24,890 bases of DNA from a virus. The notes under the pieces were generated by a model, which was not told the origin of the DNA, ran no database searches, and worked only from the letters and a program-made list of their open reading frames with translations. Positions 10,535 through 24,890 of this stretch are shown here, in pieces; position 1 is the stretch's first letter; each line of letters starts with the position of its first letter. The position numbers and the translations under genes were made by a program. Location of the stretch: positions 1 to 24,890 of the IMG/VR virus record IMGVR_UViG_3300020281_000118; one strand, 5' to 3'.

Positions 10535-10567
10535 GTAAGGTTAGAATTAATTCAAGAACATAGAACA

Positions 10568-10753
10568 ATGACTAAATTTTTATTACCAATTGCAATCAAC
10601 GTCATAAACAAAGCTGTTGATAAAATTCCAGAAGATCTAGATGAACTACTAAAGAAGTTTGTGGTATCTATCTTAAAAAAAGCTGCAGCTAAGAGTGGTA
10701 ACAAAGTAGATGATCTACTAGTTGCACAGTTAGAAAAAGCTTTATTTGAATAA
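10568..10753 (+). CDS. Small hypothetical helical protein
   Basis: A 61-residue protein that reads as two amphipathic helices (VINKAVDKIPEDLDELLKKF; VVSILKKAAAKSGNKVDDLL). The segment NKVDDLLV resembles NKIDDFLV near residue 100 of the 825-residue protein just upstream (there KKAASATRNKIDDFLVNL), so the two may share a short domain. Family unknown. Confidence 0.65.
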   Translation: MTKFLLPIAINVINKAVDKIPEDLDELLKKFVVSILKKAAAKSGNKVDDLLVAQLEKALFE

Positions 10754-10779
10754 GGCTACTGCTAAAATAGTTTTATCCA

Positions 10780-10974
10780 ATGGCTGATAAATGGATTAAA
10801 GACGCTATCAAACGTCCTGGTGCTTTTACTAAGAAAGCAAAAGCAAGAGGGATGGATGTAAAAGAGTTTGCATCAAAGGTAACATCTAATCCAGATAAGT
10901 ATGATACTCGTACAGTTCGCCAAGCTAACTTAGCTAAAACCCTAAGTAAATTACGTAAACGTAAAAAGAAATAA
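10780..10974 (+). CDS. Small basic conserved phage protein
   Basis: A 64-residue protein starting MADKWIKDAIKRPGAFTKKA and ending in a basic tail (RQANLAKTLSKLRKRKKK). This pattern (MADKWI..AI..PGA...AK, and RANLAKTLSK at the end) is a familiar small protein of marine cyanophages of several types, of unknown function. The strong positive charge suggests DNA or capsid contact. It is followed 2 bases later by the next gene. Confidence 0.75.
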   Translation: MADKWIKDAIKRPGAFTKKAKARGMDVKEFASKVTSNPDKYDTRTVRQANLAKTLSKLRKRKKK

Positions 10975-10976
10975 CC

Positions 10977-11393
10977 ATGTCAGTATTTGATTACAAATTA
11001 AATCGTAGGCAACAGCTGGTTAAGAAGGGTGAAATGATAGATAACAATATTGATTTCTCTGGCAGAACTAATACAGACTTTACAAATAAGTTTGTAGCAA
11101 AGATGCGAGATACAAACAATCTTTATACTAGAGAATCACCTGGACAGTTTGATGATCAAAAAGCAGAGGTTGTCAGAAAAAATTTAATCACACAGGCAGA
11201 TGATAGGGGGCAGTTTAATGATCCCGGTCAGCAAGTTAGATCAGATGCTTTCTTAGCTAAGTTTAGAAATTCAGTATTAGTCAACGAAGAGGAGAAGCCT
11301 AGCAGACAAGGTATCTTACAATATATGCAAGGCAATCCAAAAGATCCACCAGTTAACGGACAGTTCCCAACAGACGGAGTAAAAACAACATGA
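10977..11393 (+). CDS. Hypothetical polar protein
   Basis: A 138-residue hydrophilic protein, rich in Asn, Asp, Gln and Arg. It holds two similar short motifs, SPGQFDDQKAEVVRKNL and DPGQQVRSDAFLAKF, which hint at an internal duplication together with RGQFNDPG. Coupled to the next gene by ATGA. Not recognised; probably structural by position. Confidence 0.65.
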   Translation: MSVFDYKLNRRQQLVKKGEMIDNNIDFSGRTNTDFTNKFVAKMRDTNNLYTRESPGQFDDQKAEVVRKNLITQADDRGQFNDPGQQVRSDAFLAKFRNSVLVNEEEKPSRQGILQYMQGNPKDPPVNGQFPTDGVKTT

Positions 11394-12274
11394 TTGGAAA
11401 AGTAGGAGTAGAAGCAGCTAAAAAAGGAGTCACAATGGCCGGACAGAAGCTCGGTGAGTTCTTTACTAAAGAAGGACTAAAACAAGCTGGTCAACAAGTT
11501 GGCAATGTAGGAAAAGCACTTTATGACAATAGAGCTGCATTAGCTTCAGCATTAGGTGATGATCTAACAAGAGCAGGAGCACAAGTAATGAAAGCACCTG
11601 AAGCTGTAAAAGCTGGAGCACAAGCAGTAGGAGAAGCTGCTAGTCAGGCAGCTGGTCAAGTAGGAAAAGAAGCAGTTAGAACTGGTATAAAACTAGGTGG
11701 TAAAGCTGGTGGTCAGGGAGTAAAGAATATAGGTAAATTAGCAACTACTCCATTTGCTGTACAGACAGGAGTTGGAGTTGCTGCAGAACAATTAATACCT
11801 CGTGCAATGGGAAGACAAGCACCTGGTCTAGGAGAAAGTGTTATACGTCAAGGAGTAAGTCAAGGTATTGGAATGCCAGTAGGTGCAGGTCTAAGAGCTG
11901 GAGGAGTTAATCCAACAATTGCAGGATTTGGAGGACAGTTAACCGGTCAGGTAGCAGGACAATTTGCAGCTGACACATTACTTCCCGGTAAACAAGATTA
12001 TCCTGTAGATTTTGGTGAAGGACCAACTACTCCAACTGGTGCAACTAAACATACTACAGAACCTGAGTACAATGAAGTTGTAAGACCTTCAACTAGAGAT
12101 CTTTCTAATGTACAGGCACAGGAAGCATTATCAGAAAGAGATAAGTATGAATATAGATTAAAGATGGCTCAGATAGAAAAGATGCCTAGTACAGTAATGC
12201 ATATGAGTCCTGATTCGAATAATCAAACTTTAGCCAGTCTTGCACAAAGCATGATGAGACAAGCTAGTTACTAG
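11390..12274 (+). CDS. Gly/Ala-rich probable virion protein
   Basis: A 294-residue protein. Residues about 1-200 are a long run of Gly/Ala/Gln/Val-rich amphipathic helices (KAGAQAVGEAASQAAGQVG; GVSQGIGMPVGAGLRAGGV) like glycine-zipper proteins that insert into membranes. The last third is polar (TEPEYNEVVRPSTRD) and ends in a Met/Gln-rich helix. It starts by ATGA overlap. The composition and place before the terminase fit an internal or ejection protein, but no family is recognised. Confidence 0.6.
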   Translation: MIGKVGVEAAKKGVTMAGQKLGEFFTKEGLKQAGQQVGNVGKALYDNRAALASALGDDLTRAGAQVMKAPEAVKAGAQAVGEAASQAAGQVGKEAVRTGIKLGGKAGGQGVKNIGKLATTPFAVQTGVGVAAEQLIPRAMGRQAPGLGESVIRQGVSQGIGMPVGAGLRAGGVNPTIAGFGGQLTGQVAGQFAADTLLPGKQDYPVDFGEGPTTPTGATKHTTEPEYNEVVRPSTRDLSNVQAQEALSERDKYEYRLKMAQIEKMPSTVMHMSPDSNNQTLASLAQSMMRQASY

Positions 12275-12284
12275 GTAAACGTCA

Positions 12285-13700
12285 ATGGAAATGACAAGAG
12301 GTTCTGTACCTAATTTCTTATCAAATAGTCAAGAGTTTGCAAGAAAGTTTGGGGAAAGGATTGTAGGAGCTGTTAAAGATGTACAAGCACCTAAAAAACT
12401 TATTGATGATATATCTAAAACTATTAGTGTAAATATGAAACGAGCACCTTGGGGTGCTTATGTATCAGATATAGGTAGAACATCTAAAAGCCCAGCTGGA
12501 GGTATACGAGATTATGAAACTCCAGTAGCAGGTGCAACTAAGACTTCAAGAGATGTTTCAAAAAGAGTAACAGACTTTTTAACAGGAGAAGATCAAAGAA
12601 AATATGGATATGGTTTTAATCCTTATAAGATGCAATCAGAAGTAGCGTCAAATATTTCAGGAGTAGTAGAGAATATAGGTCAAAAACAAGCTCTTAATAT
12701 AGGTGGAAAAAGGATTGATATTCCTGGAACTGGACCTATAAAACCTCCTCATGGTATTGAACCTCAATTTGATCCTGATGGAAGAGGAGGCGATGGAGGA
12801 TATGGACCATTAGATTCTACTGGATTAAGTGCTGCTGGAGCAGCTGCTTTAACTTTTGGCATACCTCGTCTCTACAATACGCTTTCTGGAAGGTCCGGCT
12901 CTATAACTGAAGGACTAAGACCTAAAGGATATAAAGCGGTAGCACCTGTATCTAAAGAAGAAGATCCCACTGGTAAGAAATCACGTAGTTTAGTGGAAGA
13001 AGCTGGACTTAGATATTTTGCTGGACAACAAAGTCAGATGTTACCTTTTAAAGAATTTATAAAAGAACGTCCTGATGTGATGCCATCAACTATAAAAGAC
13101 TACAGACGTTATGTAAATCGCAAACCAGAGGCAGGTAAAAGAATAGATATAGATCCAGAGAAACAAACATTTACTGCTTTTGGTGGAGCATTAAAAGGAA
13201 CAGCTCGTGGTTTAAATGATCCAGAAATAAGATTTAAAGGAGTTCCATTCACTGCTTCAGCTACTCTAGGAACTGCTGCAGGTGTAGCTACTGTTGCTGC
13301 TGGAGTTAAACAATTAAATCCATATACAAAAGGAATAAATGCAATGGAGAAAAAACTTAATATGGAAAAAGTAGAGTTACAAGAGCAAATAGGAAGAGGT
13401 GGAGAAGGTAATGAGCGTGTTGTTGAATCACTAAAAAGAAAAGTAGATACTACACAAGATATGATTGATACTGCTAAGAAAGTTAGATATGAAGAGATGT
13501 TATCTCCAGCTGCACAAAAGTTTGATAAGTTAGGATCTCTTAAAGAACCAGCTATATTGTTAGGTGGTACATTGGCAGCTGTTGGTACTGCTGCTGTAGC
13601 TAAAAAGTTGTTCCAAAAAGCTGAACAAGAACGAATCAAGAAAGAAGACCCCTTACAATATAAGAAGTACAAACGTGGCGACTACACAAAAGAAGACTGA
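12285..13700 (+). CDS. Probable virion protein with three hydrophobic segments
   Basis: A 471-residue protein with a basic N-terminal third (KFGERIVGAVKDVQAPKKL; NMKRAPWGAYVSDI). It has three Gly/Ala hydrophobic segments near residues 180-195 (GLSAAGAAALTFGIP), 325-340 (ATLGTAAGVATVAAGV) and 424-442 (AILLGGTLAAVGTAAVAKKL), with a charged coiled coil between the last two. The C-terminus is very basic. It ends in TGATG coupling to the next gene. The pattern suggests an internal protein that inserts in the host envelope; this is inference only. Confidence 0.6.
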   Translation: MEMTRGSVPNFLSNSQEFARKFGERIVGAVKDVQAPKKLIDDISKTISVNMKRAPWGAYVSDIGRTSKSPAGGIRDYETPVAGATKTSRDVSKRVTDFLTGEDQRKYGYGFNPYKMQSEVASNISGVVENIGQKQALNIGGKRIDIPGTGPIKPPHGIEPQFDPDGRGGDGGYGPLDSTGLSAAGAAALTFGIPRLYNTLSGRSGSITEGLRPKGYKAVAPVSKEEDPTGKKSRSLVEEAGLRYFAGQQSQMLPFKEFIKERPDVMPSTIKDYRRYVNRKPEAGKRIDIDPEKQTFTAFGGALKGTARGLNDPEIRFKGVPFTASATLGTAAGVATVAAGVKQLNPYTKGINAMEKKLNMEKVELQEQIGRGGEGNERVVESLKRKVDTTQDMIDTAKKVRYEEMLSPAAQKFDKLGSLKEPAILLGGTLAAVGTAAVAKKLFQKAEQERIKKEDPLQYKKYKRGDYTKED

Positions 13701-14071
13701 TGAGTAGAAACAATTTAGAAAGTGGTAATGATCCAGAAAAGCGCAATAAAAGACGTTTTGGTAGTATTTTCGATGCTATAAATGAAAATCTAAAACGTAA
13801 AGATGAAATAAGTTATGCAGCTCAAGAACAGAGAAAAACAGCTAAAGAGTTAGCAGAAAGTTATAAGAGAGGTAGTACAAAGATATCTGATGATGCAACT
13901 GTAGTGGAAGGTTATCAGGATCAGGGATTCACCTTGCCAGGTCAACAAGGTAGATCATTCGGTGGATTGATTGGAACAGGACTTGGAGCTGTAGGTGGTT
14001 TCATAGCAGGGGGACCAGCTGGAGCTTATAAAGGAGCTCAATTAGGAAGCACAGTAGGAAGTTACTTCTAA
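13700..14071 (+). CDS. Glycine-zipper protein
   Basis: A 123-residue protein. The first 75 residues are charged and helical (NENLKRKDEISYAAQEQRK); the end is a classic glycine zipper (GGLIGTGLGAVGGFIAGG, then GAYKGAQLGSTVGSYF). Such ends are found in membrane-inserting or pore-lining phage proteins. It starts within the upstream stop (TGATG). Confidence 0.65.
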   Translation: MSRNNLESGNDPEKRNKRRFGSIFDAINENLKRKDEISYAAQEQRKTAKELAESYKRGSTKISDDATVVEGYQDQGFTLPGQQGRSFGGLIGTGLGAVGGFIAGGPAGAYKGAQLGSTVGSYF

Positions 14072-14116
14072 GTTTGCTACCTATAAAATATTAATCAAAG
14101 GAGTTAATTAAAAGAA

Positions 14117-14563
14117 ATGTTATTACCATTAGTCGCTGGCGGTTTACTTGTAAATGAAATTAGGAAAGCTGGTGAAAGGAAAGAAGTTAATGAATTGATA
14201 AGAAGACAAAAGATGGCTGATAAAATGTTAGGATCTCCTACTGGTGGCTTTGGATATCAGACAGGTTTTGGCCCTGGTATGGAGTTACCTCTTAGTGGTT
14301 ATCAATCTATTCTTAGATATACAGATCAGATGGGTAAGCAGCAAAGAGAAAATATGATCAAAAACTTACTAGCAATAGAACCAATAACAGATAGAGCAAA
14401 AACAAGAGACTTTGAACGTCAGATGGGAGCTGCTAGATTCCGTACTCAACTTGGCACACAGCAGGGACTAACATTACAAGGTCAGGTAGGTGCTCAAAGA
14501 TTAGCACAACAGGGAATGCAGGGAGCAACTCAAGCATTAGCTTCTAATTATCAGTATCAGTAA
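14117..14563 (+). CDS. Gln-rich protein with hydrophobic N-terminus
   Basis: A 148-residue protein. A short hydrophobic start (MLLPLVAGGLLV) is followed by basic helices, a Gly-rich middle (GGFGYQTGFGPG), and a Gln/Ala/Gly-rich C-terminal half (TQQGLTLQGQVGAQRLAQQG). AAAGGAG lies about 13 bases upstream, further than ideal. Probably a virion component by company. Confidence 0.6.
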   Translation: MLLPLVAGGLLVNEIRKAGERKEVNELIRRQKMADKMLGSPTGGFGYQTGFGPGMELPLSGYQSILRYTDQMGKQQRENMIKNLLAIEPITDRAKTRDFERQMGAARFRTQLGTQQGLTLQGQVGAQRLAQQGMQGATQALASNYQYQ

Positions 14564-15064
14564 ATGAGATTTGCTAATGTCAAATTTGGATTTGCAGGGG
14601 CTAAGAAGAATCCTCTTGGAATACCTTTGCCCGAATTAGGAGTATCAGAACTTTTAGGATTACCTAATTTTGGTGACATTAACAAAAGAATTAATGAGTC
14701 TAAAAAGAAAGAAGAAACAGGATCAGGGTTAGGAGATTCTTACAGTAGAGAACAATATAATAGAGACCTTAGAAATATGATGATAACTGGTGGTGCAATA
14801 AGAGAGTATGAAGCTGGAAGAGAAGCAAAAAGAAACATGGCAGCAGCTAAACAGTATTTCCAAATGGCAGGAGCAGCTCAGGAAACTGCTGCAAGAAGAA
14901 GACTGATGGAAGATCAGTTCTCTCCTACTAAGATTTCTCAACAGAGGTTAAGAGCACAAACAGGAGAGGCAGCATTAATGGATGCTATAGCTAGACAGGG
15001 TAATACAGCAGTCAACATCGCCACAGCTGGACTTTCACCTAGAGGTAGAGCTGGTGGTAGATAA
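14564..15064 (+). CDS. Probable virion-associated protein
   Basis: A 166-residue protein whose ATG directly follows the upstream TAA. The N-terminal third is hydrophobic with Pro and Gly (GIPLPELGVSELLGLPNFG). The middle and end are Arg/Ala/Gln-rich helices (EAGREAKRNMAAAKQYF; GAAQETAARRRLMEDQF). No family recognised. Same compositional style as its neighbours. Confidence 0.6.
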   Translation: MRFANVKFGFAGAKKNPLGIPLPELGVSELLGLPNFGDINKRINESKKKEETGSGLGDSYSREQYNRDLRNMMITGGAIREYEAGREAKRNMAAAKQYFQMAGAAQETAARRRLMEDQFSPTKISQQRLRAQTGEAALMDAIARQGNTAVNIATAGLSPRGRAGGR

Positions 15065-15107
15065 GATTTTTTGCACTAAAATTAAATTAATAGATTAGAT
15101 TTTTGTT

Positions 15108-15521
15108 ATGGGAGGAAGACCACCAGCACCAAGAGTTGAATATATACCTGCTCCACCACCACCTGTTACGGTGTCTACACCAACGCAGTCTTTAAGAACA
15201 CAGACTGAATTGACTAAGTTAACTGGTGAGCAGACCAGATTAAATATGGAAACTGGTGCCGAGTTAGATCGTATTAATGAAGAGTTCTACACTGGTCAGG
15301 ATCTGAGAAGATACAGAGCCAGGGGTGCTGAAGAACGTCTACTCTCCGAAACAAAGGGAGAACAGGAAAGAGCAACAACACAGACCAGAGGTCAGGAACA
15401 GAGACTTACTGTTGGTAAGACTGGTGAAGAAACCAGAGCAACTAACTTGCAACAGGAGCAGTTCAGACGCTATAAAGAGAATAGAGATTATCAACAGGCA
15501 CAATCAGCATACAAATCATAA
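15108..15521 (+). CDS. Pro-rich and 11-residue-repeat protein
   Basis: A 137-residue protein. The N-terminus is Pro-rich (RVEYIPAPPPPVTV). Residues about 40-115 carry a repeat with an 11-residue period: G-x-E-x-R blocks at 40, 51, 63, 73, 84, 95 and 106 (GEQTR, AELDR, GQDLR, GAEER, GEQER, GQEQR, GEETR). This hendecad period is typical of a right-handed or straight coiled coil. It is strongly charged, with no hydrophobic segment. The stop overlaps the ATA proposed as the next start. Role unknown; an elongated structural rod is plausible. Confidence 0.65.
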   Translation: MGGRPPAPRVEYIPAPPPPVTVSTPTQSLRTQTELTKLTGEQTRLNMETGAELDRINEEFYTGQDLRRYRARGAEERLLSETKGEQERATTQTRGQEQRLTVGKTGEETRATNLQQEQFRRYKENRDYQQAQSAYKS

Positions 15522-16003
15522 CCGACTGGTTAGATACTTTATCTGATAAAGAAAGAGAAACATATCTAGCTTTTTGTAAACAGACCAGTTCACCAATACA
15601 GATGTATCTTTATGCTCGTTTTTTAGGGTATAAAGGTTCTATAACTGATTGTGATACCTGGTCGAAAAAAGAATTTAAGAAAAGAAACTTTAGCACCATA
15701 CTTGAGATAGAAATAGATTCTATGCAAGTAGATATATCAAAGCTCAGAGAAGCTATAGATCTTGGAGTTGTAAAACAGGATATGGGAGCTGCTCGCATAT
15801 CCATGCTTCAAAAAGAGTTACGGGCACATATAAAACAACTTGCAGATGAAAAACATCTTACAGATAGACAGGGATTGATATTAGCTGGTGCTGATAGATC
15901 ATTAAGAGAAATACTTTTAATCTTCAGAGATGATCCTATAGAAGGTCCATTACAGGAAGCATCAATGGGTGTATGGACAAAGATTCTTCAGGAAGAATCA
16001 TAA
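15518..16003 (+). CDS. Probable terminase small subunit, ATA start
   Basis: A 161-residue protein just before the large terminase gene, the usual place and length for the small subunit, which binds phage DNA to begin packaging. The first ATG in the frame (15602) would cut off a clearly protein-like N-terminus (TDWLDTLSDKERETYLAFCK). The frame is open back to 15485 with no ATG, GTG or TTG. ATA at 15518 overlaps the upstream TAA as ATAA, just where ATGA would be expected. The C-terminal two thirds are helical (LREAIDLGVVKQDMG; KGLIL-like GLILAGADRSLREILLIF). The role comes from context; no helix-turn-helix is clearly visible. Confidence 0.6.
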   Translation: MTDWLDTLSDKERETYLAFCKQTSSPIQMYLYARFLGYKGSITDCDTWSKKEFKKRNFSTILEIEIDSMQVDISKLREAIDLGVVKQDMGAARISMLQKELRAHIKQLADEKHLTDRQGLILAGADRSLREILLIFRDDPIEGPLQEASMGVWTKILQEES

Positions 16004-16027
16004 GCCTTTATAGGTTAGTCTTAGTAC

Positions 16028-17551
16028 ATGGCTGGAACAAGTATCTATTCTGTTTATCGTAGAACTGCCCGTGCAGCTGCTAAACAACAAGTTGTAAAGA
16101 AAACATCTTCAGTTGATGTTGAAAAAGCTAGAACAGATTTTGCATACTTCTGTGATGTTGTAGGGGACAAACCTCCTGCAGAACACATGAAACTGTGGCA
16201 TGAACATTTATATACACATCAAGATAGTGAATGTTTAATTAATATTGCTGGACCAAATGTAGATATACTCGCACCAAGAGGATCAGCTAAATCTACAGTA
16301 TTAGGTTTATTTACAGCCTGGGCTATTGGTGTACATGCACTCAATCGTAAACCATTAAAGATTTTATATATTTCATATACTGTTGATGTTGCCAGACCAA
16401 AGAGTGCAGCAATAAAAAGAATTATTGAAGATAGTAAAATCTATAGAGAAATATTTCCTATGGTAAAAATTGCCAAAGGAATAAACTCTAATGAGTATTG
16501 GAGTATTGATTGGAAGTTTGCAGGTATAAGATCAACTGGTGAAGAAGAATTTAGTTTATGTTGTGCAGGATTAAAAGGTGCTGTTACATCAAAGCGTTCA
16601 CATTTATGTATTATTGATGATGCTATAAAATCAGCTGATGATATTAAGAACAGAGACATTCGTGTAGCTATGGAAGATAACTGGAACTCAGTTATTGTTC
16701 CAACTATGTTTGAAGGTGGTAGAGCTATATGTCTTGGTACAAGATTCAGACATGATGATATACATCAAACTACCTTTATTCCTGACAATGATTGGATACA
16801 GATAATTCAATCAGCAGTAACTGTTGATGAACATGGTGATGAAAAATCATATTGGCCGGAGATGTGGTCACTTGAGTATCTTAATGATCGTAGAAGACAA
16901 TCACCAATAAGTTTTAGTTTTCAATATCAGAATCAGGTAGTAAGAACAAGTGATATGTCTGTTTCACCTGATCTAATTATTAAGGGTCAGATACCAACAC
17001 AGTTTGATTGTCTAGGTGTTGGTGTTGATTTATCAGCTGGTGTCAGAGAAAGAAATGACTATACAGTTTTTGTAATGGGTGGAAGAGTAGGAGACAAAAT
17101 TTATATTATTGACTGTAAACGATTAAGAATAATGGGTAATGTAGAAAAACTGGAAGCCATTATGGAAATGATGATGGAGTGGGGAATAGTTCATAAAGAC
17201 CAAGATAAATACTTTCCAACTGGTAGTACTGTGGACATCTGGTCTGAAGCAGTGGCTTATCAGGCATCATTAGAAGCTGATTTTAAACGTATATGTCTAG
17301 AAGAACAGGGACTTTATAATCTACTCTGGCATCCTGTAAAAGGATTCAGGGGAGATAAAGTTGCTAGGTTCAGAGGAATTATGGGCTTATTTGAGCAACA
17401 TAAGATATTATTTAATAAATATCGCAAATTCCAGGCACTAACTGATGAGATTGTTAATTTCGGAGTTAGTTCCCACGATGATTGTGTTGATGCACTGGTT
17501 TGGTTATGTAATGGATTAATGTCCAGAGGAAAACTAGAGTTAGAGTATTGA
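16028..17551 (+). CDS. terL: Terminase large subunit
   Basis: A 507-residue protein, normal length for the family. The packaging ATPase has a Walker A at residues 81-90 (LAPRGSAKST) and a Walker B at 192-198 (HLCIIDD). The C-terminal RNase H-like nuclease has its first acidic residue in VGVDLSAG (D334) and others in SHDDCVDALVW (D484, D485, D488). It cuts the concatemer and pumps DNA through the portal. It is preceded by the likely small subunit and followed by the portal gene, the usual module. I cannot place it in a subfamily that would tell headful from cohesive-end packaging. Confidence 0.9.
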   Translation: MAGTSIYSVYRRTARAAAKQQVVKKTSSVDVEKARTDFAYFCDVVGDKPPAEHMKLWHEHLYTHQDSECLINIAGPNVDILAPRGSAKSTVLGLFTAWAIGVHALNRKPLKILYISYTVDVARPKSAAIKRIIEDSKIYREIFPMVKIAKGINSNEYWSIDWKFAGIRSTGEEEFSLCCAGLKGAVTSKRSHLCIIDDAIKSADDIKNRDIRVAMEDNWNSVIVPTMFEGGRAICLGTRFRHDDIHQTTFIPDNDWIQIIQSAVTVDEHGDEKSYWPEMWSLEYLNDRRRQSPISFSFQYQNQVVRTSDMSVSPDLIIKGQIPTQFDCLGVGVDLSAGVRERNDYTVFVMGGRVGDKIYIIDCKRLRIMGNVEKLEAIMEMMMEWGIVHKDQDKYFPTGSTVDIWSEAVAYQASLEADFKRICLEEQGLYNLLWHPVKGFRGDKVARFRGIMGLFEQHKILFNKYRKFQALTDEIVNFGVSSHDDCVDALVWLCNGLMSRGKLELEY

Positions 17552-17578
17552 CGAATTAGACTATTAAGAGTATCTAAC

Positions 17579-17767
17579 ATGGTAGCCAATTTTTTCTATA
17601 AAGGTATTGAACTAGAGCAAGACGCTTATGGTTCTGCTATATTCAATCTTCCTGATGAAGTATGTCACGATCTAGGTCTTCAACCTGGAGAACGCTTCGA
17701 TATTGAAGCTGATGACGAAAACATTATCTTTAAACGACAGGCAGCTGGCTATGAGATTGATGCGTAA
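17579..17767 (+). CDS. AbrB/MazE-like small protein
   Basis: A 62-residue protein. Residues 19-53 (SAIFNLPDEVCHDLGLQPG, then ERFDIEADDENIIFKR) match the swapped-hairpin pattern of AbrB, SpoVT and MazE proteins: strand, LP.E, LGL.PG, strand, acidic turn, strand. Such proteins form dimers that bind DNA as transition regulators or antitoxins. No toxin gene is next to it. Its place between terL and the portal gene is odd; it may regulate late genes or have been recruited to a structural task. Confidence 0.65.
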   Translation: MVANFFYKGIELEQDAYGSAIFNLPDEVCHDLGLQPGERFDIEADDENIIFKRQAAGYEIDA

Positions 17768-17789
17768 TAAAATAATAAAAAGTGACTAG

Positions 17790-20036
17790 ATGAATCAAAC
17801 TAACTCTACTTTTGAAGCAATGCTCAAGGCAGCAATAAGTCGTGACTCGACTGGTGCTACCGATACGATGCTTATACATGCTCATCTAGCACAGATGAAG
17901 ATGTTTGGTATTCGTCAGGGTGTTGAGTTTTACCCTGAGCAGGATAACTTTGGGCAACAGAGATATGATTTTATACAACAGGTAATTAAATTTAATCAGC
18001 TTGATGCAAGATTAGATTCTATATGGGATCATTTTTTAGCTTTAGGAAAAGGTTTATTTTATATTCGTCCCACAGAAAAAACATATAGACTTTACTGGTT
18101 TGATAAAAATTCTTACAGGACTTATTATTCACCAGAAGGAGATCTGGAAGAAGTAATAGTTATCTATCCTTATAAAGTTAAATCCAACAGAGGTTTTTCT
18201 GGATCACAGATTGGATTAAATACTGATAAGAGATACATGCGTCTTCGTATTACAGCAGAAACCATTGAAGAAACACATAGTGAACAGGAATTAAGTTTTG
18301 ATAATCCTGCTGAATTTACTACTTTAAATAAAAAGACACTTACAAATACATTACAGTTTATTCCTTGTGTTGAAGTATTTAATAATCCTGATGCTTTTGG
18401 TACAGATGGTAGTGGTGAATTTGATTGGATAGCTAATCAGATTGTTGCTCATGATGAAATGGTTAAGAACATCAGAGCTAACCTTTCATTCTTTGGTAAT
18501 CCAACTTTATTATCTTCACGTCCTAAACAGGACATTGTTGAAAGTGGTAAAGATGCTCCACCACAAAGACCAAGTATATCTAGTCAATCTGGATTTACTT
18601 CTGATTTAAGTACACTTACATCTACATATAAACAAGATCCTGTAACAAGAAATCCTGCCGGATATATTGGTAGTCCAGGATCTGGTATGAGAGTTCCTAG
18701 AGTTATTGCTAATTTAGAACCTTCAGATCGTGTTGGATTTATTACTCCTAATGCAGTAAGTACAGATCAATCTAGATATGTTTCACAGTTAAGAAATGAA
18801 ATACGTTTAGCTTTAGGTGGTATTGATGATATATCAATCAGCAATGTAACTGCTACTGAAATTAAATCTCAGTATGGAAGAGTAAGTGCTACAGCTAGAA
18901 AGAAATGTTTACAGATATATGAGTATGGAATCTGTAAGTGTCTTGAGTTAATGATCTTCCAGGAAGAACAGATATTCCGTAAGACATTGGCACAGGCATC
19001 TGGTATTAAATATCCTGAAGCACCTGTTGAAGAAACTCCTGAAGCTATGGAGAAATTCGAGAAGCAAAAAGCTACATATGAAAAGAAATTACAGAAGGCA
19101 ATTGATATTGCAAGAGAAACAAAAGAAGTACCTCCAGGTGTACTTGGATTAGTTCCAGATGGAGAAAGAACAGTAGCTTGGAGATGGATGGGTCCTGTGT
19201 ATGAAGATACTGCACAGGACAAAGTGCAGCAATCCATATTCTGTAGAAACTTACAAGAATTAGGGGTTGATAGCATAGAAGCACTGAAGTATTTATTCCC
19301 ATCAAAAACTGATGATGAAGTTGCCGGTATGTTATCGGGATTTCCATTCAGAATGGTAGGACAAGTACAAAGGGCTTATTCTCAATTCCTCGATCTAATA
19401 AATCAAGAAATGAGAACACCACATCCGCAGCAACCGGATATTCCAATGGCTGCAGATCCGAGACTTGATCTCACCCCTTTCTTATATAGAACACTCGAAT
19501 CACTCCAGAAGGAAGTAACTTATGCAGGCAGATACCGCAATGCCGACCCAATCGGCACCCCAACCATCAGTGACCCCACAAGCCAGTTACGGGGCACCGG
19601 TACAAACAGCAGCACAGCAGCCAGCGGTGGCGACAACTCCACAGTGGGTAGCACCTCAACAGGCAGCGGTGGCACCAGCACCACAAGTGCAAGCCCAGAT
19701 GGGTACAACGTCAGTCCCATACAGCCCTACACAGTCAAGCCCCCAAGCCAGCCCATCAGCGGAGAATCCTTACAAGGAGGCGTTCAACAGGGTAGTGGGG
19801 CTCCTGAGTTCACCAGTGCAAATCCCCTTCCTGGGTCAACAGTCTCCAGCGACACAAGAGTACGGCCAGGCGAATTACAGTTCCCCTCAAGCTCCCTCTT
19901 ACAACAATCAGGGGATGCAGACATCGCAGCCTTTGAACGGGAGCAACCAGGCATACTCCAACAACTCTTCCCAAACTTCGCAGGCAATCAGCGACCAGCA
20001 ACTCCTAGCAAACGGAGTAAGTCCAGAAAGTCTTGA
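17790..20036 (+). CDS. Portal protein
   Basis: A 748-residue protein. The typical portal core includes an N-terminal region with YDFIQQVIKFNQLDARLD and ALGKGLFYIRP, a Pro/Phe-rich clip area, and the long stem helix ATEIKSQYGRVSATARKKC. It forms the twelve-part ring at one head vertex and passes DNA during packaging and ejection. The last about 170 residues are Ser/Thr/Gly/Pro-rich and low in complexity (STVGSTSTGSGGTSTTSAS) and coincide exactly with the overlap with the next gene (19522-20036). This tail is probably a by-product or an extension fixed by dual coding. Identified by pattern and by its place after terL. Confidence 0.85.
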   Translation: MNQTNSTFEAMLKAAISRDSTGATDTMLIHAHLAQMKMFGIRQGVEFYPEQDNFGQQRYDFIQQVIKFNQLDARLDSIWDHFLALGKGLFYIRPTEKTYRLYWFDKNSYRTYYSPEGDLEEVIVIYPYKVKSNRGFSGSQIGLNTDKRYMRLRITAETIEETHSEQELSFDNPAEFTTLNKKTLTNTLQFIPCVEVFNNPDAFGTDGSGEFDWIANQIVAHDEMVKNIRANLSFFGNPTLLSSRPKQDIVESGKDAPPQRPSISSQSGFTSDLSTLTSTYKQDPVTRNPAGYIGSPGSGMRVPRVIANLEPSDRVGFITPNAVSTDQSRYVSQLRNEIRLALGGIDDISISNVTATEIKSQYGRVSATARKKCLQIYEYGICKCLELMIFQEEQIFRKTLAQASGIKYPEAPVEETPEAMEKFEKQKATYEKKLQKAIDIARETKEVPPGVLGLVPDGERTVAWRWMGPVYEDTAQDKVQQSIFCRNLQELGVDSIEALKYLFPSKTDDEVAGMLSGFPFRMVGQVQRAYSQFLDLINQEMRTPHPQQPDIPMAADPRLDLTPFLYRTLESLQKEVTYAGRYRNADPIGTPTISDPTSQLRGTGTNSSTAASGGDNSTVGSTSTGSGGTSTTSASPDGYNVSPIQPYTVKPPSQPISGESLQGGVQQGSGAPEFTSANPLPGSTVSSDTRVRPGELQFPSSSLLQQSGDADIAAFEREQPGILQQLFPNFAGNQRPATPSKRSKSRKS

Positions 20037-20547
20037 AGTAATTAATCACTTCGGTGCAGATGCTCCAGCAGTTTTAAATAACTATGCAGTACAAGTCGAA
20101 GATGCTTTAATCAATACAAACAATCAGTTACAGGAAGCTGTTGGATTATTAAAAGAAATGTCTGAAGAGCATAAAGCTTATGAGACAATCTTGACTGATC
20201 CAGATGTGTTAGCAGATTATACATGTGAATTCTATGGTCCTAACGGTCCATATCCAGTAGAAGAAGAGCCAGCAGGACAAGTAGTAGGAAATCAAGGTAT
20301 AACACAGCAACAGCAAGCAGCTGCATTACAACAGCAGCAAGCTGCAGCACAGGCACAGGCAGATCCAAGATTTGCACGTCCTCAAATGCCAGTTCCTCCA
20401 CAGCCACAAGCTCCAGAGAACAATGGGGATTTCTGGAATAACTTCGGAGCCTTAACTGATAAGGACCCTGCTAATGCATGGAGATACTTAAATCAGGCAC
20501 AGCAAACACCTGATATCTTCAGAAACAAGATGTTAGTAATGGAATAA
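19522..20547 (+). CDS. Probable scaffold protein, overlapping the portal gene
   Basis: A 341-residue protein in the +1 frame relative to the portal. AAGGAAG stands 6 bases before the ATG, so initiation inside the portal gene is credible. Residues 1-170 are Gln/Pro/Ala/Ser-rich (PQWVAPQQAAVAPAPQ); 175-250 are acidic and helical (NHFGADAPAVLNNYAVQVED; NTNNQLQEAVGLLKEMSEEH); a Gln/Ala linker and a helical C-terminus (DPANAWRYLNQAQQ) follow. An acidic, coiled, low-complexity protein right after the portal is typical of head scaffolds, but no family is recognised and no capsid gene follows in the window. The 511 bases beyond the portal stop are clearly coding. Confidence 0.65.
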   Translation: MQADTAMPTQSAPQPSVTPQASYGAPVQTAAQQPAVATTPQWVAPQQAAVAPAPQVQAQMGTTSVPYSPTQSSPQASPSAENPYKEAFNRVVGLLSSPVQIPFLGQQSPATQEYGQANYSSPQAPSYNNQGMQTSQPLNGSNQAYSNNSSQTSQAISDQQLLANGVSPESLEVINHFGADAPAVLNNYAVQVEDALINTNNQLQEAVGLLKEMSEEHKAYETILTDPDVLADYTCEFYGPNGPYPVEEEPAGQVVGNQGITQQQQAAALQQQQAAAQAQADPRFARPQMPVPPQPQAPENNGDFWNNFGALTDKDPANAWRYLNQAQQTPDIFRNKMLVME

Positions 20548-20576
20548 TTTCTTAGATTTATACAACTTAAAATTAA

Positions 20577-20601
20577 GGGTAGTTAATAGCTACCCTTTTT
20601 T
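20577..20601 (+). terminator. Intrinsic terminator after the scaffold gene
   Basis: GGGTAG (20577-20582), a 7-base loop, CTACCC (20590-20595), then six T. A 6-bp perfect stem plus T-run on the plus strand, 30 bases after the stop at 20547. The next ATG begins directly after the T-run. It probably ends most late transcripts of the packaging module. Confidence 0.8.
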
Positions 20602-20907
20602 ATGGATGTTGGACAGACTGTAGGTGGTATTGGTGGAGGTATAGCCGGTACAGCTTTACTTGGAGCAATAGATGGACCTTTACCTTTTATGGATATTGTA
20701 GGAGCAGGAATTGGTTCAGCAATAGGTCAAGATATTGGAAAAGCTATAGGTGGTAAAGGTAAGAAACAACGTATGGCTGGTGGAATGGACCCTAGATTAC
20801 TTATGATGAATATGCCTATAGTTAATCCAAATACACAGATGATGGCAGGAATGGGAATAGTAGATCCTAATCCATCAAAAGTCTTACAAGAGTATGCTAT
20901 GTACTGA
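20602..20907 (+). CDS. Glycine-zipper protein with Met-rich tail
   Basis: A 101-residue protein. The N-terminal half is a glycine zipper (VGGIGGGIAGTALLGAIDG; VGAGIGSAIGQDIGKAIGG), the tail Met/Asn/Pro-rich (LLMMNMPIVNPNTQMM). It is similar in style to the zipper at the end of the 13700-14071 product. The ATG sits right against the terminator with no room for a ribosome site; an internal ATG at 20773 would lose the zipper. It may be a membrane-inserting virion or lysis protein. Confidence 0.55.
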   Translation: MDVGQTVGGIGGGIAGTALLGAIDGPLPFMDIVGAGIGSAIGQDIGKAIGGKGKKQRMAGGMDPRLLMMNMPIVNPNTQMMAGMGIVDPNPSKVLQEYAMY

Positions 20908-20964
20908 TAAGCTAAGTCAGTTTAAAATGAATGGAGAAGTAAATACTTTTTATTAGATAAGATT

Positions 20965-21393
20965 ATGCCAGGAATGTTTGCACCAGAAAGAAAACCTCCT
21001 ATGGGTACTATGGATGGTGCTATTGCACAAGGAGAGGCAATAAAGAAAGGAGTAAGAATGGCAGGTGAAGCTTTACGCACAGCATTTGGTGGAGGAGCAA
21101 TAACAGGAGAAAGTGCAGATCGTAGACAACCAACAGAACAGATGATGATAGGTAATCCAATGGCACATCCTATGGCTGCTGATTCAGTCAAGATGCCACA
21201 GGATTTACAAGCCGGTTATATGCACATGAATAGATTTGGATCTCCATTACCTATACATGGTTTAGGTACACCTGGTAGAACAAGCATGGCAAACATGATG
21301 CAGGATCAAAACTTTATGGCATATCACAGAGCAATCATTGGTAATCGTAATCCAATGGGTATGTCCAGAATTCCCTTTGGAGCAATCGCTTAA
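20965..21393 (+). CDS. Hypothetical Met/Gly/Pro-rich protein
   Basis: A 142-residue protein. MPGMFAPERKPPMG is followed by a helix (IAQGEAIKKGVRMAGEALR), then a Met- and Pro-rich part (MMIGNPMAHPMAADSVKMP). It shares the Met-rich style with the gene upstream and ends 2 bases before the next ATG. Family unknown. Confidence 0.6.
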   Translation: MPGMFAPERKPPMGTMDGAIAQGEAIKKGVRMAGEALRTAFGGGAITGESADRRQPTEQMMIGNPMAHPMAADSVKMPQDLQAGYMHMNRFGSPLPIHGLGTPGRTSMANMMQDQNFMAYHRAIIGNRNPMGMSRIPFGAIA

Positions 21394-21395
21394 TT

Positions 21396-21671
21396 ATGGA
21401 AGACAATCGTAAAGAAGCTTTAAACAAAGCAACTAAAGCAAAACAGAAGATGGCTGTAGAAGCAGAGATGATGAAGCAGCTTCAACCTACAGTTCCAGAG
21501 GTAACTGCAGCAAACATTGATATGCAGCCAGGAATCAATCCTAATCCCAAGCCAGAAGGTCCTGTAATCAACGCAAACGTATTTAACCCAGGTAATCTAT
21601 ATCCAGGTATATCAGGTAATACTAAGCTCGCTGCAACATGGAATCCTATGATGGACCCAGCAGCTGGTTAG
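21396..21671 (+). CDS. Hypothetical protein, charged start and Pro/Asn-rich end
   Basis: A 91-residue protein. Residues 1-35 form a charged helix (RKEALNKATKAKQKMAVEAE); the rest is Pro/Asn/Gly-rich and probably unfolded (PGINPNPKPEGPVINANVF). Its TAG stop overlaps the TAA stop of the opposing gene by sharing TTAG, with no room for a terminator between the convergent genes. Confidence 0.6.
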   Translation: MEDNRKEALNKATKAKQKMAVEAEMMKQLQPTVPEVTAANIDMQPGINPNPKPEGPVINANVFNPGNLYPGISGNTKLAATWNPMMDPAAG

Positions 21672-21922
21672 AATTTAGGTAGAGTAGGTAAAGGATTAGA
21701 AGGACCAGTAGGAACTACATCACCTGTAGTGTCAGGAAGACTTGGTATTGATTTACCAAGTTGTTCAGTGAGTAATTTTTGAGCTTCATTTATAGCATAA
21801 CCTTTTATCTTTTCTTGATTAGTCTTATTAGTAAGAGCTAGATAACCAAATCCAATTGCACCTACAGTTGTTAGTGATAAAACAAAAGAAGCAATTGCTA
21901 ATCCATCAATAAGTTTTCGCAT
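21668..21922 (-). CDS. Single-span membrane protein, inverted in the plus-strand block
   Basis: An 84-residue protein. The basic start MRKLIDGLA is followed by a membrane span at about residues 9-30 (ASFVLSLTTVGAIGFGYLAL), a polar helix (NQEKIKGYAINEAQKLL) and a Pro-rich tail. I have the impression of similar MRK...LASFV proteins in other cyanophages, with unknown role. It is the only minus-strand gene between 8057 and 24310, so it needs its own promoter in the 45-base gap to its right. Confidence 0.7.
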   Translation of the reverse strand: MRKLIDGLAIASFVLSLTTVGAIGFGYLALTNKTNQEKIKGYAINEAQKLLTEQLGKSIPSLPDTTGDVVPTGPSNPLPTLPKF

Positions 21923-21967
21923 TTTTATATAGTATTTAATTTAATTATATCTCTTATACTGGAGAGT
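21923..21967. promoter_or_regulatory. Divergent promoter gap
   Basis: 45 very AT-rich bases (TATATAGTATTTAATTTAAT) between two divergent genes. GGAGAGT before the plus-strand ATG at 21968 is a good ribosome site. TATACT and TATAAT-like strings occur on both strands, so promoters in both directions are likely, but I cannot choose one. Confidence 0.45.
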
Positions 21968-22249
21968 ATGAGATTAGCTTCTGTACCCGGTTATTACCCT
22001 AGTTTTCCTGTTAAATATTCGAATATGTATAATGATTATTCGATGACAACAGCTGGACTGGCAGATCCTTTCTTACCACAGAAAAAAGAAGAATCTAATA
22101 AGTGTGACTTTGTAGTTTCATATATAGGTAGAAATGAACCTAAATTTGAAATGAATAATCCACATTACATGAGAGAAGTATCAAGATCTTATTTTGATAA
22201 AATTCCCCCTGTTATTCTTAATAAAGAGCCAATACAAAATAGATTTTAA
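21968..22249 (+). CDS. Hypothetical protein, first gene of the small-gene operon
   Basis: A 93-residue protein starting MRLASVPGYYPSFPVKYSNM, aromatic- and Pro-rich, with no membrane segment. GGAG lies 5 bases before the ATG. The stop overlaps the next start as TAATG. Not recognised. Confidence 0.7.
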   Translation: MRLASVPGYYPSFPVKYSNMYNDYSMTTAGLADPFLPQKKEESNKCDFVVSYIGRNEPKFEMNNPHYMREVSRSYFDKIPPVILNKEPIQNRF

Positions 22250-22497
22250 TGGCACAAGATGATTCAAAATATACCAAACCTGGATTACGTGAACGTATCA
22301 AGAAACGTATTACAGCCGGAAGCAAAGGAGGAAAGCCCGGTCAGTGGAGTGCAAGAAAGGCTCAGATGGTTGCACAAGCATATAAGAAAGCAGGTGGAGG
22401 ATATAAAGGTGGGAAAGGTAAAAAGCAAAAAGATCTAAAACGCTGGGGTAAAGAGAAGTGGATGACCAGAAAAGAGTATGAGAGTAAGAAGAAATGA
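22249..22497 (+). CDS. Small basic DUF5872-type protein
   Basis: An 82-residue, very basic protein. The pattern KPGLRERIKKRI, then GSKGGKPGQWSARKAQ, GGGY and WMTRKEYE is that of a small family (DUF5872, from memory) common in phages and some bacteria, with unknown function. The charge suggests nucleic-acid binding. It is joined to the next gene by ATGA. Confidence 0.75.
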   Translation: MAQDDSKYTKPGLRERIKKRITAGSKGGKPGQWSARKAQMVAQAYKKAGGGYKGGKGKKQKDLKRWGKEKWMTRKEYESKKK

Positions 22498-22706
22498 ACA
22501 CTGTATCTTTAGCACTTAAATTAGTATTTGCTGTAGTAATCTTTGAATTACTTATAGTTGGTGGTACTGTACTCAAATGTTTTGATACAGATAGTTGTGA
22601 TGAAAATGATTCAAATAACATCACACTAATTTTAAATAGTATTGCAGCAAAATCTTTTGCTTTATATGCTGCTGAAAAGGGGAGTGCAGCTAAAATAAAA
22701 GAATGA
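22494..22706 (+). CDS. Small single-span membrane protein
   Basis: A 70-residue protein with one span at about residues 8-27 (LKLVFAVVIFELLIVGGTVL), an acidic Cys-containing turn (CFDTDSCDENDSNN) and a helical C-terminus. ATGA overlaps on both sides. One span and small size would suit a holin or spanin-like part, but nothing proves it. Confidence 0.7.
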   Translation: MNTVSLALKLVFAVVIFELLIVGGTVLKCFDTDSCDENDSNNITLILNSIAAKSFALYAAEKGSAAKIKE

Positions 22707-23122
22707 AACCAAAAGTAGTACTTGTATTAAATAAAAAAGTTTCAGAGGTAAGTGATTCTTGTCCTACTGCAACTATTGATATAGAGGAGAATGCCAAGAA
22801 CAGAAACTGGACTATAGATAATTTTGGTTATGGTCCTTTAAATCCCGATGCACCAGATCCTGGATTCTGGGAAAAGAAAGCTGAACTCTGGAACAGTGAT
22901 ATTGAAACTGTAAAGACAGCTAGATGTGGTAACTGTGCAGCATTTGATCAGACAGATAAGATTATGGATTGCATGATTAAAGGTATCAATGAAACTATGG
23001 CTGCAGATCCACAGGATGTTTTAGATAGAGCAAACTTAGGATACTGTCAGTTATTTAAATTTAAATGTGCAGCCACTCGTACCTGTGATGCATGGCTACA
23101 TGGAGGACCTATTAGAGACTAA
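22703..23122 (+). CDS. Cys-rich putative metal- or cluster-binding protein
   Basis: A 139-residue protein with seven Cys. The C-terminal half holds C75-x2-C78 (RCGNCAAF), C90, then C115, C122 and C128 in GYCQLFKFKCAATRTCDAW. Closely set Cys next to aromatic residues resemble small iron-sulfur or zinc proteins. I have the impression that this ending occurs in many marine phages; its role is unknown. ATGA coupling upstream, and the next ATG shares the last base of its TAA. Confidence 0.7.
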   Translation: MKPKVVLVLNKKVSEVSDSCPTATIDIEENAKNRNWTIDNFGYGPLNPDAPDPGFWEKKAELWNSDIETVKTARCGNCAAFDQTDKIMDCMIKGINETMAADPQDVLDRANLGYCQLFKFKCAATRTCDAWLHGGPIRD

Positions 23123-23256
23123 TGGAAAAAGGAACAGAAAGTAAAATCACTAAGATTATTGGTGAGCTTAATAAAGCTTCTAAAACTCATAAAGGTCAGG
23201 CAGATAGATTAACTACAATATTATCTGTTTTAAAAGGAGCTAATAAAGATGGCTGA
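23122..23256 (+). CDS. 44-residue helical protein
   Basis: A tiny gene bridging its two neighbours: TAATG overlap at its start and 8 bases shared with the next gene. It starts MEKGTESKITKIIGELNKAS and continues as amphipathic helix. It fills a gap that is otherwise empty in a fully coupled operon, which is the main support. Confidence 0.65.
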   Translation: MEKGTESKITKIIGELNKASKTHKGQADRLTTILSVLKGANKDG

Positions 23257-23467
23257 TAAAGCTATAGAACCTGGCAAGAAAAGCACTGAGAGGTATTTAC
23301 CTGAATCAGCTTGGAAAGCTATGTCTAAAGCTGAAAGAAAGAAGACTGATGACAAGAAGAAAAGAGAAAGTAGAAAGGGAAAACAGTTTGTAGAAAATAC
23401 AGAGAAAGCAAAGAGGGCACGTAGAATGGCAAGTGAAAGAGCAAAAAAAAGTATGAAAAATGATTAG
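23249..23467 (+). CDS. Small basic conserved-type phage protein
   Basis: A 72-residue, Lys/Arg-rich protein (KKSTERYLPESAWKAMSKAE; KGKQFVENTEKAKRARRM). The order TERYLP.SAW, then QFV.NT..AK is one I associate with small proteins of marine phages and of unknown function. GGAG lies 8 bases before the ATG. It overlaps its neighbours by 8 bases on both sides. Confidence 0.7.
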   Translation: MADKAIEPGKKSTERYLPESAWKAMSKAERKKTDDKKKRESRKGKQFVENTEKAKRARRMASERAKKSMKND

Positions 23468-23675
23468 ATCAATGAGAGAACAATTAATCAAAGCACTTAT
23501 AGCTCATGCACATGGAGACATTCAGAAACATGCTGCAAATGTAGAAGTCTACTTAAATAATCCTGTAGGTATTGGAGAGCACTCTAATATCATTGAAGCA
23601 ATCGAACAGGAGTTAGATATGATTGCAAAGTATCAAGATCAGATAGATATAATAAATAAATATTTTAAAAAGTAA
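23460..23675 (+). CDS. Small conserved-type cyanophage protein
   Basis: 71 residues from the ATG at 23460; an ATG four codons later (23472, MREQLIKALIAHAHGDI) may be the true start, since the pattern I know begins there. HAHGDIQKHAANVEVYLNNP followed by an acidic helix is a familiar small cyanophage protein without a known role. TAATG coupling to the next gene. Confidence 0.75.
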   Translation: MIRSMREQLIKALIAHAHGDIQKHAANVEVYLNNPVGIGEHSNIIEAIEQELDMIAKYQDQIDIINKYFKK

Positions 23676-23971
23676 TGGCTGCTCGTATTCCTAGAAAAGA
23701 GGGTCAGCCTGCCAAGAGTAAAAAACATAGTGATCTTTATACAGATGAAGATCCAAAAGGAACTATTCAAGGACTACAGTTTAAAAATAAAAGAGCTGCT
23801 GCTTTAAGTGTTGCTAAAATTAAAAGAAGTAATAGATCACATAATCACAAAACACAAGCTGCTATAGCTATGGAACAGAGAGCAGAGGTTGCTGGTAAAG
23901 ATGCAGCTGCTTCTGTCTATAGAAAGTTTATAGAAGAGCAGAAAAGAAAAACAAAAGAAAAAAATGCTTAG
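23675..23971 (+). CDS. Conserved-type phage protein with HSDLYTDE motif
   Basis: A 98-residue basic protein. KKHSDLYTDEDPKGTIQGL is a motif I recognise from many phages of marine bacteria; it is followed by AALSVAKIKRSNRSHNHK and a helix ending in many Lys. Function unknown; a nucleic-acid role is plausible from the charge. It overlaps the next gene by 8 bases. Confidence 0.75.
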   Translation: MAARIPRKEGQPAKSKKHSDLYTDEDPKGTIQGLQFKNKRAAALSVAKIKRSNRSHNHKTQAAIAMEQRAEVAGKDAAASVYRKFIEEQKRKTKEKNA

Positions 23972-24113
23972 ACCAAATACAGAACTACTTACAGAAGATG
24001 TGATGCAAGGTCAACCACGTTTTGTTGATATATCTAAAGGCACATTAACAGCAGAAACTAAAAGATCTAAAGCTGTAAATAAAGCAACTAAATATAAGAA
24101 AGGTATATCATGA
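23964..24113 (+). CDS. 49-residue basic hypothetical protein
   Basis: Starts MLRPNTELLTEDVMQGQPRF and ends with a Lys-rich tail (SKAVNKATKYKKGIS). The ATG lies inside the end of the upstream gene and its TGA overlaps the next ATG as ATGA, so it fits the coupled operon exactly. Not recognised. Confidence 0.7.
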   Translation: MLRPNTELLTEDVMQGQPRFVDISKGTLTAETKRSKAVNKATKYKKGIS

Positions 24114-24310
24114 ATGAAGTATTTGTTTTTATCTATTTCTTTTTCTTTGCATTGATTACTGGTGCTGCTTTTGCATTTATGTGGAGGTCTATGGATCTAA
24201 TGTTTAAACAATTAGACAGACCAATACAACAAATACATCCAGAGATGAGAGATATTAAACCTGATGATGAGTTGTTAGTGTTTAAAGTTGTCGAAGAAGA
24301 GGAAGACTAA
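24110..24310 (+). CDS. Small membrane protein with acidic tail, conserved type
   Basis: A 66-residue protein. N-terminal span at about residues 4-25 (VFVFIYFFFFALITGAAFAF), then WRSMDLMFKQLDRP and an acidic tail (KVVEEEED). I recall close relatives in cyanophages and picocyanobacteria; their role is unknown. It is the last gene of the plus operon and converges with the next, sharing CTAA as overlapping stops. Confidence 0.75.
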   Translation: MNEVFVFIYFFFFALITGAAFAFMWRSMDLMFKQLDRPIQQIHPEMRDIKPDDELLVFKVVEEEED

Positions 24311-24522
24311 GCCTGCCACTGCTTTGCTATTTCAGGAATTATATTTACATCAATACCCATAAATGGTGGTATAAAGCCTAAGACTCTAAAGAGACCATCT
24401 GCAAAAGCTCCCATAAAAACGAATCCTAGTGCAGCACTGACCATAGATGCATTACGATTATGTCTGTTAATTGCTATTGATACAGACTGATCAATAAGAT
24501 CTTGGATTTCTTGTTGAGACAT
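24307..24522 (-). CDS. Small membrane protein
   Basis: A 71-residue protein. A polar helix (SQQEIQDLIDQSVSIAINRH) is followed by a hydrophobic region at about residues 26-55 (MVSAALGFVFMGAFADGLF, then RVLGFIPPFMGI), one long or two short spans. It lies between the hli terminator and the convergent plus operon. Size and layout would suit a holin-like protein, but this is only a possibility. Confidence 0.7.
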   Translation of the reverse strand: MSQQEIQDLIDQSVSIAINRHNRNASMVSAALGFVFMGAFADGLFRVLGFIPPFMGIDVNIIPEIAKQWQA

Positions 24523-24539
24523 AGTAAAAGGTTTTTTTA

Positions 24540-24545
24540 ATTATA
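24540..24545 (-). promoter_or_regulatory. Possible -10 element for the 24522 gene
   Basis: On the minus strand TATAAT lies 17 bases before the ATG at 24522 and just after the hli terminator. No good -35 is visible at the right distance (CTTTTT there is part of the T-run). If used, the transcript would have a very short leader without a ribosome site. Confidence 0.35.
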
Positions 24546-24560
24546 AAGATAGTTAGCATT

Positions 24561-24589
24561 AAAAAAAGCCCCTCTTTAGGAGAGGCTTA
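24561..24589 (-). terminator. Intrinsic terminator of the psbA-hli transcript
   Basis: On the minus strand AAGCCTCTC, loop CTAAA, GAGGGGCTT, then further T: a 9-bp stem with one G-T pair followed by a run of seven T. It lies about 20 bases after the hli stop and should end the psbA-hli message. Confidence 0.8.
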
Positions 24590-24608
24590 CATTAATTAGT
24601 AGTAAAGA

Positions 24609-24716
24609 TTACCAGATTCCAGGAATAACTTGTCCTGTTGTAGCGTAAGCACCAAGTGCTGCTACGAAGCCGAGCATAGCTGCCCAACCATTAAATCTTT
24701 CTGCTTCAGGTGTCAT
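24609..24716 (-). CDS. hli: High-light-inducible protein
   Basis: A complete 35-residue protein, MTPEAERFNGWAAMLGF followed by VAALGAYATTGQVIPGIW. It has the chlorophyll-binding motif E6-x2-N9-G-x2-A13-M14-x-G16-F17 of the Hlip/LHC family, in one membrane helix. During infection such proteins are thought to protect photosystem II by binding pigment and shedding excess light energy. CGGAG lies 9 bases before the ATG. It is 24 bases after the psbA stop on the same strand, so the two are probably co-transcribed, as in many cyanophages. The short length and Trp after Asn-Gly are typical of phage copies. Confidence 0.93.
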   Translation of the reverse strand: MTPEAERFNGWAAMLGFVAALGAYATTGQVIPGIW

Positions 24717-24740
24717 TGTTTTTCTCCGAATAGAATTGAA

Positions 24741-24890
24741 TTAACCGATTGCAGGGGCTGAAAGAGCTACAGTTGTAGACTCAGCACAAGCTAAATCGAG
24801 TGGGAAATTATGAGCATTACGCTCGTGCATTACTTCCATACCAAGGTTTGCTCTGTTTAGAACATCTGCCCATGTAGGAATGATCTTACC
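24741..24890 (-). CDS. psbA: Photosystem II D1 protein, C-terminal end only
   Basis: The last 49 residues of D1; the rest lies beyond the right window edge. [19 protein letters not shown], then [15 protein letters not shown] is the conserved D1 end, including the Glu (EVMHE), His (HERNAH) and final Asp-Leu-Ala that bind the manganese-calcium cluster in known structures. The tail after DLA ([15 protein letters not shown]) is the extension removed by the CtpA protease. Phage D1 replaces the host protein as it is damaged by light, keeping energy flow during infection. Confidence 0.95.

Follow-up and report, generated by a model that had tools for sequence, protein, structure and literature searches.

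An out-of-frame overlap between a portal gene and a probable scaffold gene, conserved among aquatic phages related to Synechococcus phage S-EIV1

Background

Head-gene arrangements relevant to the present locus have been described in several phages: T7 encodes portal, scaffold and major capsid protein in genes 8, 9 and 10; the scaffold Nu3 of lambda starts within the head gene C and is read in the same frame; and phiX174 is an example of a virus with out-of-frame overlapping genes. Small genomes, which are short of space, supply the best-known cases of long out-of-frame overlaps with selection on both proteins. A review of out-of-frame overlapping virus genes covers mainly small viruses, below 30 kb (PMC8227390), whereas the genome concerned here is that of a tailed dsDNA phage, about 80 kb long, and one partner in the overlap is a portal gene. 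A literature search found no paper describing a published portal-gene overlap. Analysis of the locus and its relatives suggests, with a probability that we put at about 0.72, an ancient conserved dual-coding pair of head genes, encoding the portal and a second head-assembly protein that is most likely a scaffold.

Two overlapping frames and their base composition

The window, i.e. the whole stretch of 24,890 nucleotides that was analysed (IMG/VR virus record IMGVR_UViG_3300020281_000118), contains the following features:

17790..20036, + strand: portal gene, 748 aa, with a structured core (residues 1 to about 580) and a disordered tail (about 600-748)
19522..20547, + strand: ORF2, 341 aa, with an ATG start (ORF call)
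19522..20036, + strand: dual-coding overlap, 515 nt, conserved in relatives and constrained in both frames
19508..19524, + strand: ORF2 initiation region, with a Shine-Dalgarno-like AAGGAAG, an in-frame TAA and the ATG
20575..20604, + strand: intrinsic-terminator-like hairpin and T run, about 30 nt past ORF2 (pattern match only)

A first-pass annotation made from the letters of the window had reported two frames open over 515 bases, and a recount of the open reading frames reproduced its coordinates and lengths exactly. ORF2 is in the +1 frame relative to the portal gene, such that the first codon position of ORF2 is the second of the portal, the third of the portal is the second of ORF2, and the third of ORF2 is the first of the portal. 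The low complexity that had been noticed in both products of the overlap is real, and both are also predicted to be disordered there. Equally exact were the hand counts of G+C (35/60 at 19561-19620 and 32/60 at 19861-19920, against 21/60 at 18601-18660): GC content is 56.5% in the overlap versus 36.0% in the remainder of the portal gene and 41.3% in ORF2 beyond the overlap, and elsewhere in 8000-23000 just 0.8% of 60-nt windows hold at least 32 G+C. The GC richness had been described as what overprinting would lead one to expect; the richness stands, but a special origin is unneeded, because the lack of a free wobble position in either frame suffices to account for it. Among relatives, GC3 of the portal core ranges over 0.15-0.83, and the wobble positions of the overlap respond to it only weakly (slopes 0.16 and 0.36); the free 3' part of ORF2 tracks it with a slope of 0.91. 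These comparisons indicate that dual coding has produced the GC-rich patch in a phage that is otherwise AT-rich. When portal synonymous codons were permuted or resampled, the +1 frame was open by chance with P about 0.02-0.03 in the window alone, so the case for the overlap must rest on relatives.

Relatives and the S-EIV1 records

Among isolates, the portal matches Synechococcus phage S-EIV1 alone (53%); its other matches are hundreds of environmental contigs. The overlap is kept in the same phase, at 446-635 nt, in 284/284 relatives with both genes complete (267 of them distinct, in four clades, with portal identity down to about 45%), counted among the loci fetched in the earlier scans. Relatives at 44-47% identity in contigs binned into metagenome-assembled genomes (MAGs) also have the overlap, and so have the most divergent members, recovered in a later search. 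Relatives L164-L171 are in contigs binned to bacterial or archaeal MAGs (Bacteroidetes, Euryarchaeota and others); such MAG-binned relatives are probably phage contigs carried over by mis-binning. One apparent exception without the overlap, L409, was set aside: it has frameshifts throughout, the portal core included, as though it came from an error-prone assembly. Scans of viral and genome contigs and of isolates yielded no outgroup that lacks the overlap, and the last contig scan for one returned mostly loci that were already known. As far as sequence comparison can tell, none of the intact members examined of this widespread group of S-EIV1-related aquatic phages has lost the overlap.

In S-EIV1 (KJ410740) the homologous pair is AHV82224 and AHV82225, 53% and 39.5% identical to the proteins of the window over the aligned parts, with an overlap of the same kind as in the window, 554 nt long. 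GenBank places the second gene at 59863-60264 (133 aa), whereas the conserved open frame begins at 59287 (325 aa), inside AHV82224; the entry thus covers only the last 133 codons of ORF2, and annotation has cut the gene by more than half in the sole isolate. At the major capsid locus of the same phage (L002:8224-9450; KJ410740 60784-62010), the annotation comprises AHV82227, which is an antisense ORF, and AHV82228, a short fragment, but a 383-aa frame on the + strand (L002 8299-9450) matches the major head protein PHROG 1357 (E 1.4e-19); the major capsid gene of S-EIV1 seems to be misannotated.

The portal protein and the product of ORF2

The upstream protein matches PHROG 20475, a head and packaging family (E 6e-212), and adjoins a large terminase gene (16028-17551; PHROG 38 and PF17289). 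Its structure model has low mean confidence (pLDDT 47.5). Foldseek with this model gave 37 PDB matches at E <= 0.001, named portals or portal-tail complexes; the model matches the portals of SaPI1, 80alpha, P-SCSP1u and T7 with E down to 1e-8, and its best matches in a BFVD structure search are likewise portals. The low-confidence model thus assigns the protein a portal fold, in agreement with the first-pass annotation, which had also held that the portal core is complete ahead of the overlap: the last core helix spans residues 562-580, and the overlap runs from residue 578.

The product of ORF2 is acidic (pI 4.2 in the window, 4.1-4.6 among relatives). Its structure model, also of low mean confidence (pLDDT 52.1), has a disordered N-terminus rich in Q, P, A and S and a helical C-terminal half, with helices between residues 158-238 and 301-339 and one long helix at 181-225:

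20032..20544, + strand: ORF2 helical domain, almost wholly beyond the overlap, with LEVINHFGADAPAVLNNYAVQVEDAL..., LTDPDVLADYTCEFYGPNGPYP and a C-terminal DFWNNFG...LVME

The gene order is portal, ORF2, major capsid protein (MCP; PHROG 1357 in the relatives) in two clades, the MCP gene lying 121-2600 nt 3' of ORF2 in 31/37 and 43/43 of the loci whose downstream sequence was long enough, the former being the close relatives of the window. In the third clade the neighbourhood of ORF2 yielded no MCP, and in the fourth it lies about 3.5 kb from ORF2 in a few matches. The window itself has no MCP within the 4.3 kb past ORF2 (20548-24890), small ORFs being present there instead. A sigma-factor-like gene (PHROG 351, E 3e-83) lies 3' of ORF2 in the clade with GTG starts (L170:5962-6900, L168:6187-7128).

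Identification of ORF2 as a scaffold by homology failed: no scaffold family was matched in Pfam or PHROG, the ORF2 profile did not match T7 gp9 (hhalign probability 0.15%), the matches of a structure search that were named scaffold were not significant, and no relatives of ORF2 outside this phage group were found by sequence, profile or fold. The scaffold identity that had been put forward as probable at first reading therefore draws no help from homology; what stands is the acidity, the helices with a disordered N-terminus and the position between portal and MCP genes in two clades. These features make a scaffold the best guess, and ORF2 is, by analogy and from its model, probably a capsid scaffold. 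A dual-coded ORF2 could instead be a component of the virion, such as an internal protein of the head or a head-tail protein, and not a scaffold that is lost during assembly; the want of scaffold homology and of a detectable MCP adjoining ORF2 in two clades would suit such a protein, but a pI close to that of T7 gp9 (4.2 vs 4.3) and a helical protein with a disordered N-terminus, encoded at the usual scaffold position in two clades, make it rather unlikely.

The start of ORF2

An in-frame TAA lies two codons ahead of the ORF2 ATG, with one codon between them. Three clades use ATG as the start, apart from two sequences with GTG, and the fourth clade uses GTG. The portal Tyr codon at this point is TAT in 198/200 sequences of the three clades (portal cores use TAT for 46-67%), and in the fourth clade the portal Ser codon is AGT, keeping the GTG, in 67/67 sequences (26% in cores), the sequences in both counts being related and hence not independent trials. 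By remaining TAT, the portal Tyr codon preserves the ORF2 ATG. The AAGGAAG that had been described as the gene's own ribosome site is present, but in the clade of the window it is largely dictated by portal Lys-Glu codons, which supply most of its bases and so weaken it as independent evidence. The Shine-Dalgarno-like site is stronger than the synonymous expectation only in the S-EIV1 clade; in three of the four clades it is not significantly above what the portal amino acids predict, and in one it is weak. A programmed +1 frameshift yielding a portal-ORF2 fusion would agree with the location of ORF2 in the +1 frame of the upstream gene, but conservation of the ATG/GTG, which in most cases closely follows an in-frame stop, renders it very improbable.

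Selection on both frames

Selection was examined in 118 disjoint pairs of close sequences from four clades, following the OLGenie approach of sorting differences by their synonymy in each frame; these are pairwise counts, made without a full phylogenetic model, with bootstrap intervals over pairs. This comparison, which had been proposed as a check, gave omega in the overlap of 0.34, 0.32, 0.34 and 0.37 for ORF2 and of 0.52, 0.66, 0.49 and 0.51 for the portal in the four clades, against 0.82-0.95 (portal core) and 1.4-1.9 (ORF2 3' part) in matched fictive-frame controls. Such values argue for purifying selection on both overlap proteins in all four clades. A search of the four clades for relatives in which one frame is closed or free of constraint found none.

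It is hardly credible that the portal is the sole functional gene in the overlap, with ORF2 starting past the portal stop and the open frame upstream a by-product of GC content. The chance probability in the window alone leaves room for such an arrangement, and GenBank annotates S-EIV1 in this way, but it is contradicted already by the comparative data: ORF2 has omega 0.32-0.37 in four clades as opposed to 0.82-0.95 in the geometrically matched fictive frame, the region of the NPYKEAFNRVVGLL motif has omega 0.06, the ORF2 start codon is preserved, and stops occur in 0/284 intact copies. Portal-synonymous drift at the core rate would be expected to introduce a stop into ORF2 in 37-67% of lineages, and no intact copy is broken. 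A frame open by chance is ruled out by this expectation and by conservation in 284/284 complete relatives, in which both frames are open.

A DNA or RNA element, such as a packaging site or RNA structure, that constrains the overlap while the frames stay open incidentally would also slow portal-synonymous change there, but it can be discounted almost entirely as the main cause, since doubly synonymous sites change nearly as fast as elsewhere (rate 0.46-0.50 in the overlap vs 0.60-0.69 in the core), change sorts by codon in both frames, and the overlap accommodates indels of many different lengths, in multiples of three. Because doubly silent changes remain fast, the constraint is at the protein level rather than on an RNA or DNA signal.

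Distribution of constraint along the overlap

Sliding analysis indicates that the two frames alternate in constraint along the following segments and motifs:

19594..19760, + strand: segment dominated by ORF2, with portal omega about 0.7-1.1
19765..19821, + strand: ORF2 motif NPYKEAFNRVVGLLSSPVQ, with a predicted helix at 83-96
19761..19841, + strand: portal tail motif GESLQGGVQQGSGAPEFTSANPLPGST, with portal omega 0.35-0.5, recognisable across four clades
19911..19979, + strand: portal tail motif GDADIAAFEREQPGILQQLFPNF, with predicted short helices at 709-718 and 722-726
20010..20036, + strand: basic portal C-terminus KRSKSRKS and stop (relatives compared)

The ORF2 motif NPYKEAFNRVVGLLSSPVQ and the portal motif GESLQGGVQQGSGAPEFTSANPLPGST are encoded by the same bases, and both frames are constrained at 19765-19841; ORF2 omega falls to 0.06 at 19774-19845, which covers NPYKEAFNRVVGLLSSPVQ. 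At 19882-19990, the stretch of GDADIAAFEREQPGILQQLFPNF, the portal frame is more constrained than ORF2. In the structure models, the predicted helices of the two proteins fall at different places. A basic cluster ends the portal tails of the four clades (KRSKSRKS, RRKRK, SRKRGKS and STRRPK), opposite in charge to the acidic ORF2.

Relative age of the two frames

Codon usage was rejected as a means of dating the frames, as both are unlike genome usage (r 0.03 and 0.24). The portal stop lies near the border of the folded domain of ORF2 in three of the four clades; in the S-EIV1 clade it is displaced by roughly 15-35 codons into ORF2, and the portal frame is unconstrained over that stretch (omega above 2). 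The later stop and the relaxed frame clearly point to a later extension of the portal into ORF2 in this clade. The proposal that the portal tail is the newer part thus holds for these 15-35 codons only; on the whole tail, codon usage and the outgroup search are silent.

A model of the dual-coding locus

We propose that frame 1 encodes a portal whose conserved core leads into a disordered tail, which bears two short conserved motifs and ends in basic residues, and that frame 2 (+1) would begin at its own ATG/GTG within the final conserved codons of that core. The product of frame 2 would have a disordered Q/P/A-rich N-terminus, encoded within the portal gene, and a helical domain, acidic and encoded mostly after it. 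Both products are presumably translated, and because some 500 nt separate the ORF2 start from the portal stop further downstream, internal initiation on the portal message would be required. Short binding motifs may lie in the flexible segments of both proteins, tiled over the DNA that they share, and such tiling would leave most segments dominated by one frame. The basic portal tail may bind the acidic ORF2. It is a good deal more doubtful that portal tail and scaffold N-terminus are binding partners whose motifs have been locked in one stretch of DNA and kept for head assembly; if so, the portal-scaffold contact that starts capsid assembly could change only jointly. Compactness is an unlikely reason for the arrangement, because this overlap of head genes persists across four clades with genomes of roughly 80 kb. 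The hundreds of natural variants constitute a well-replicated system for studying how two proteins share one sequence.

Comparison with known systems

The portal fold is common to T7 and the window, and both T7 gp9 and ORF2 are acidic helical proteins of about 300 aa encoded between portal and capsid genes (here in two clades), but T7 genes 8 and 9 do not overlap, unlike the portal gene and ORF2, and gp9 has no detectable profile similarity with ORF2. Lambda Nu3 provides a precedent for a scaffold that starts inside another head gene, as is proposed for ORF2; Nu3 and C, however, share a frame and nothing is dual-coded, whereas the frames of the portal and ORF2 differ. In that respect there is a likeness with the out-of-frame overlapping genes of phiX174 and other viruses, in which one sequence yields two proteins and constraint is split between them by segment, as it is here.
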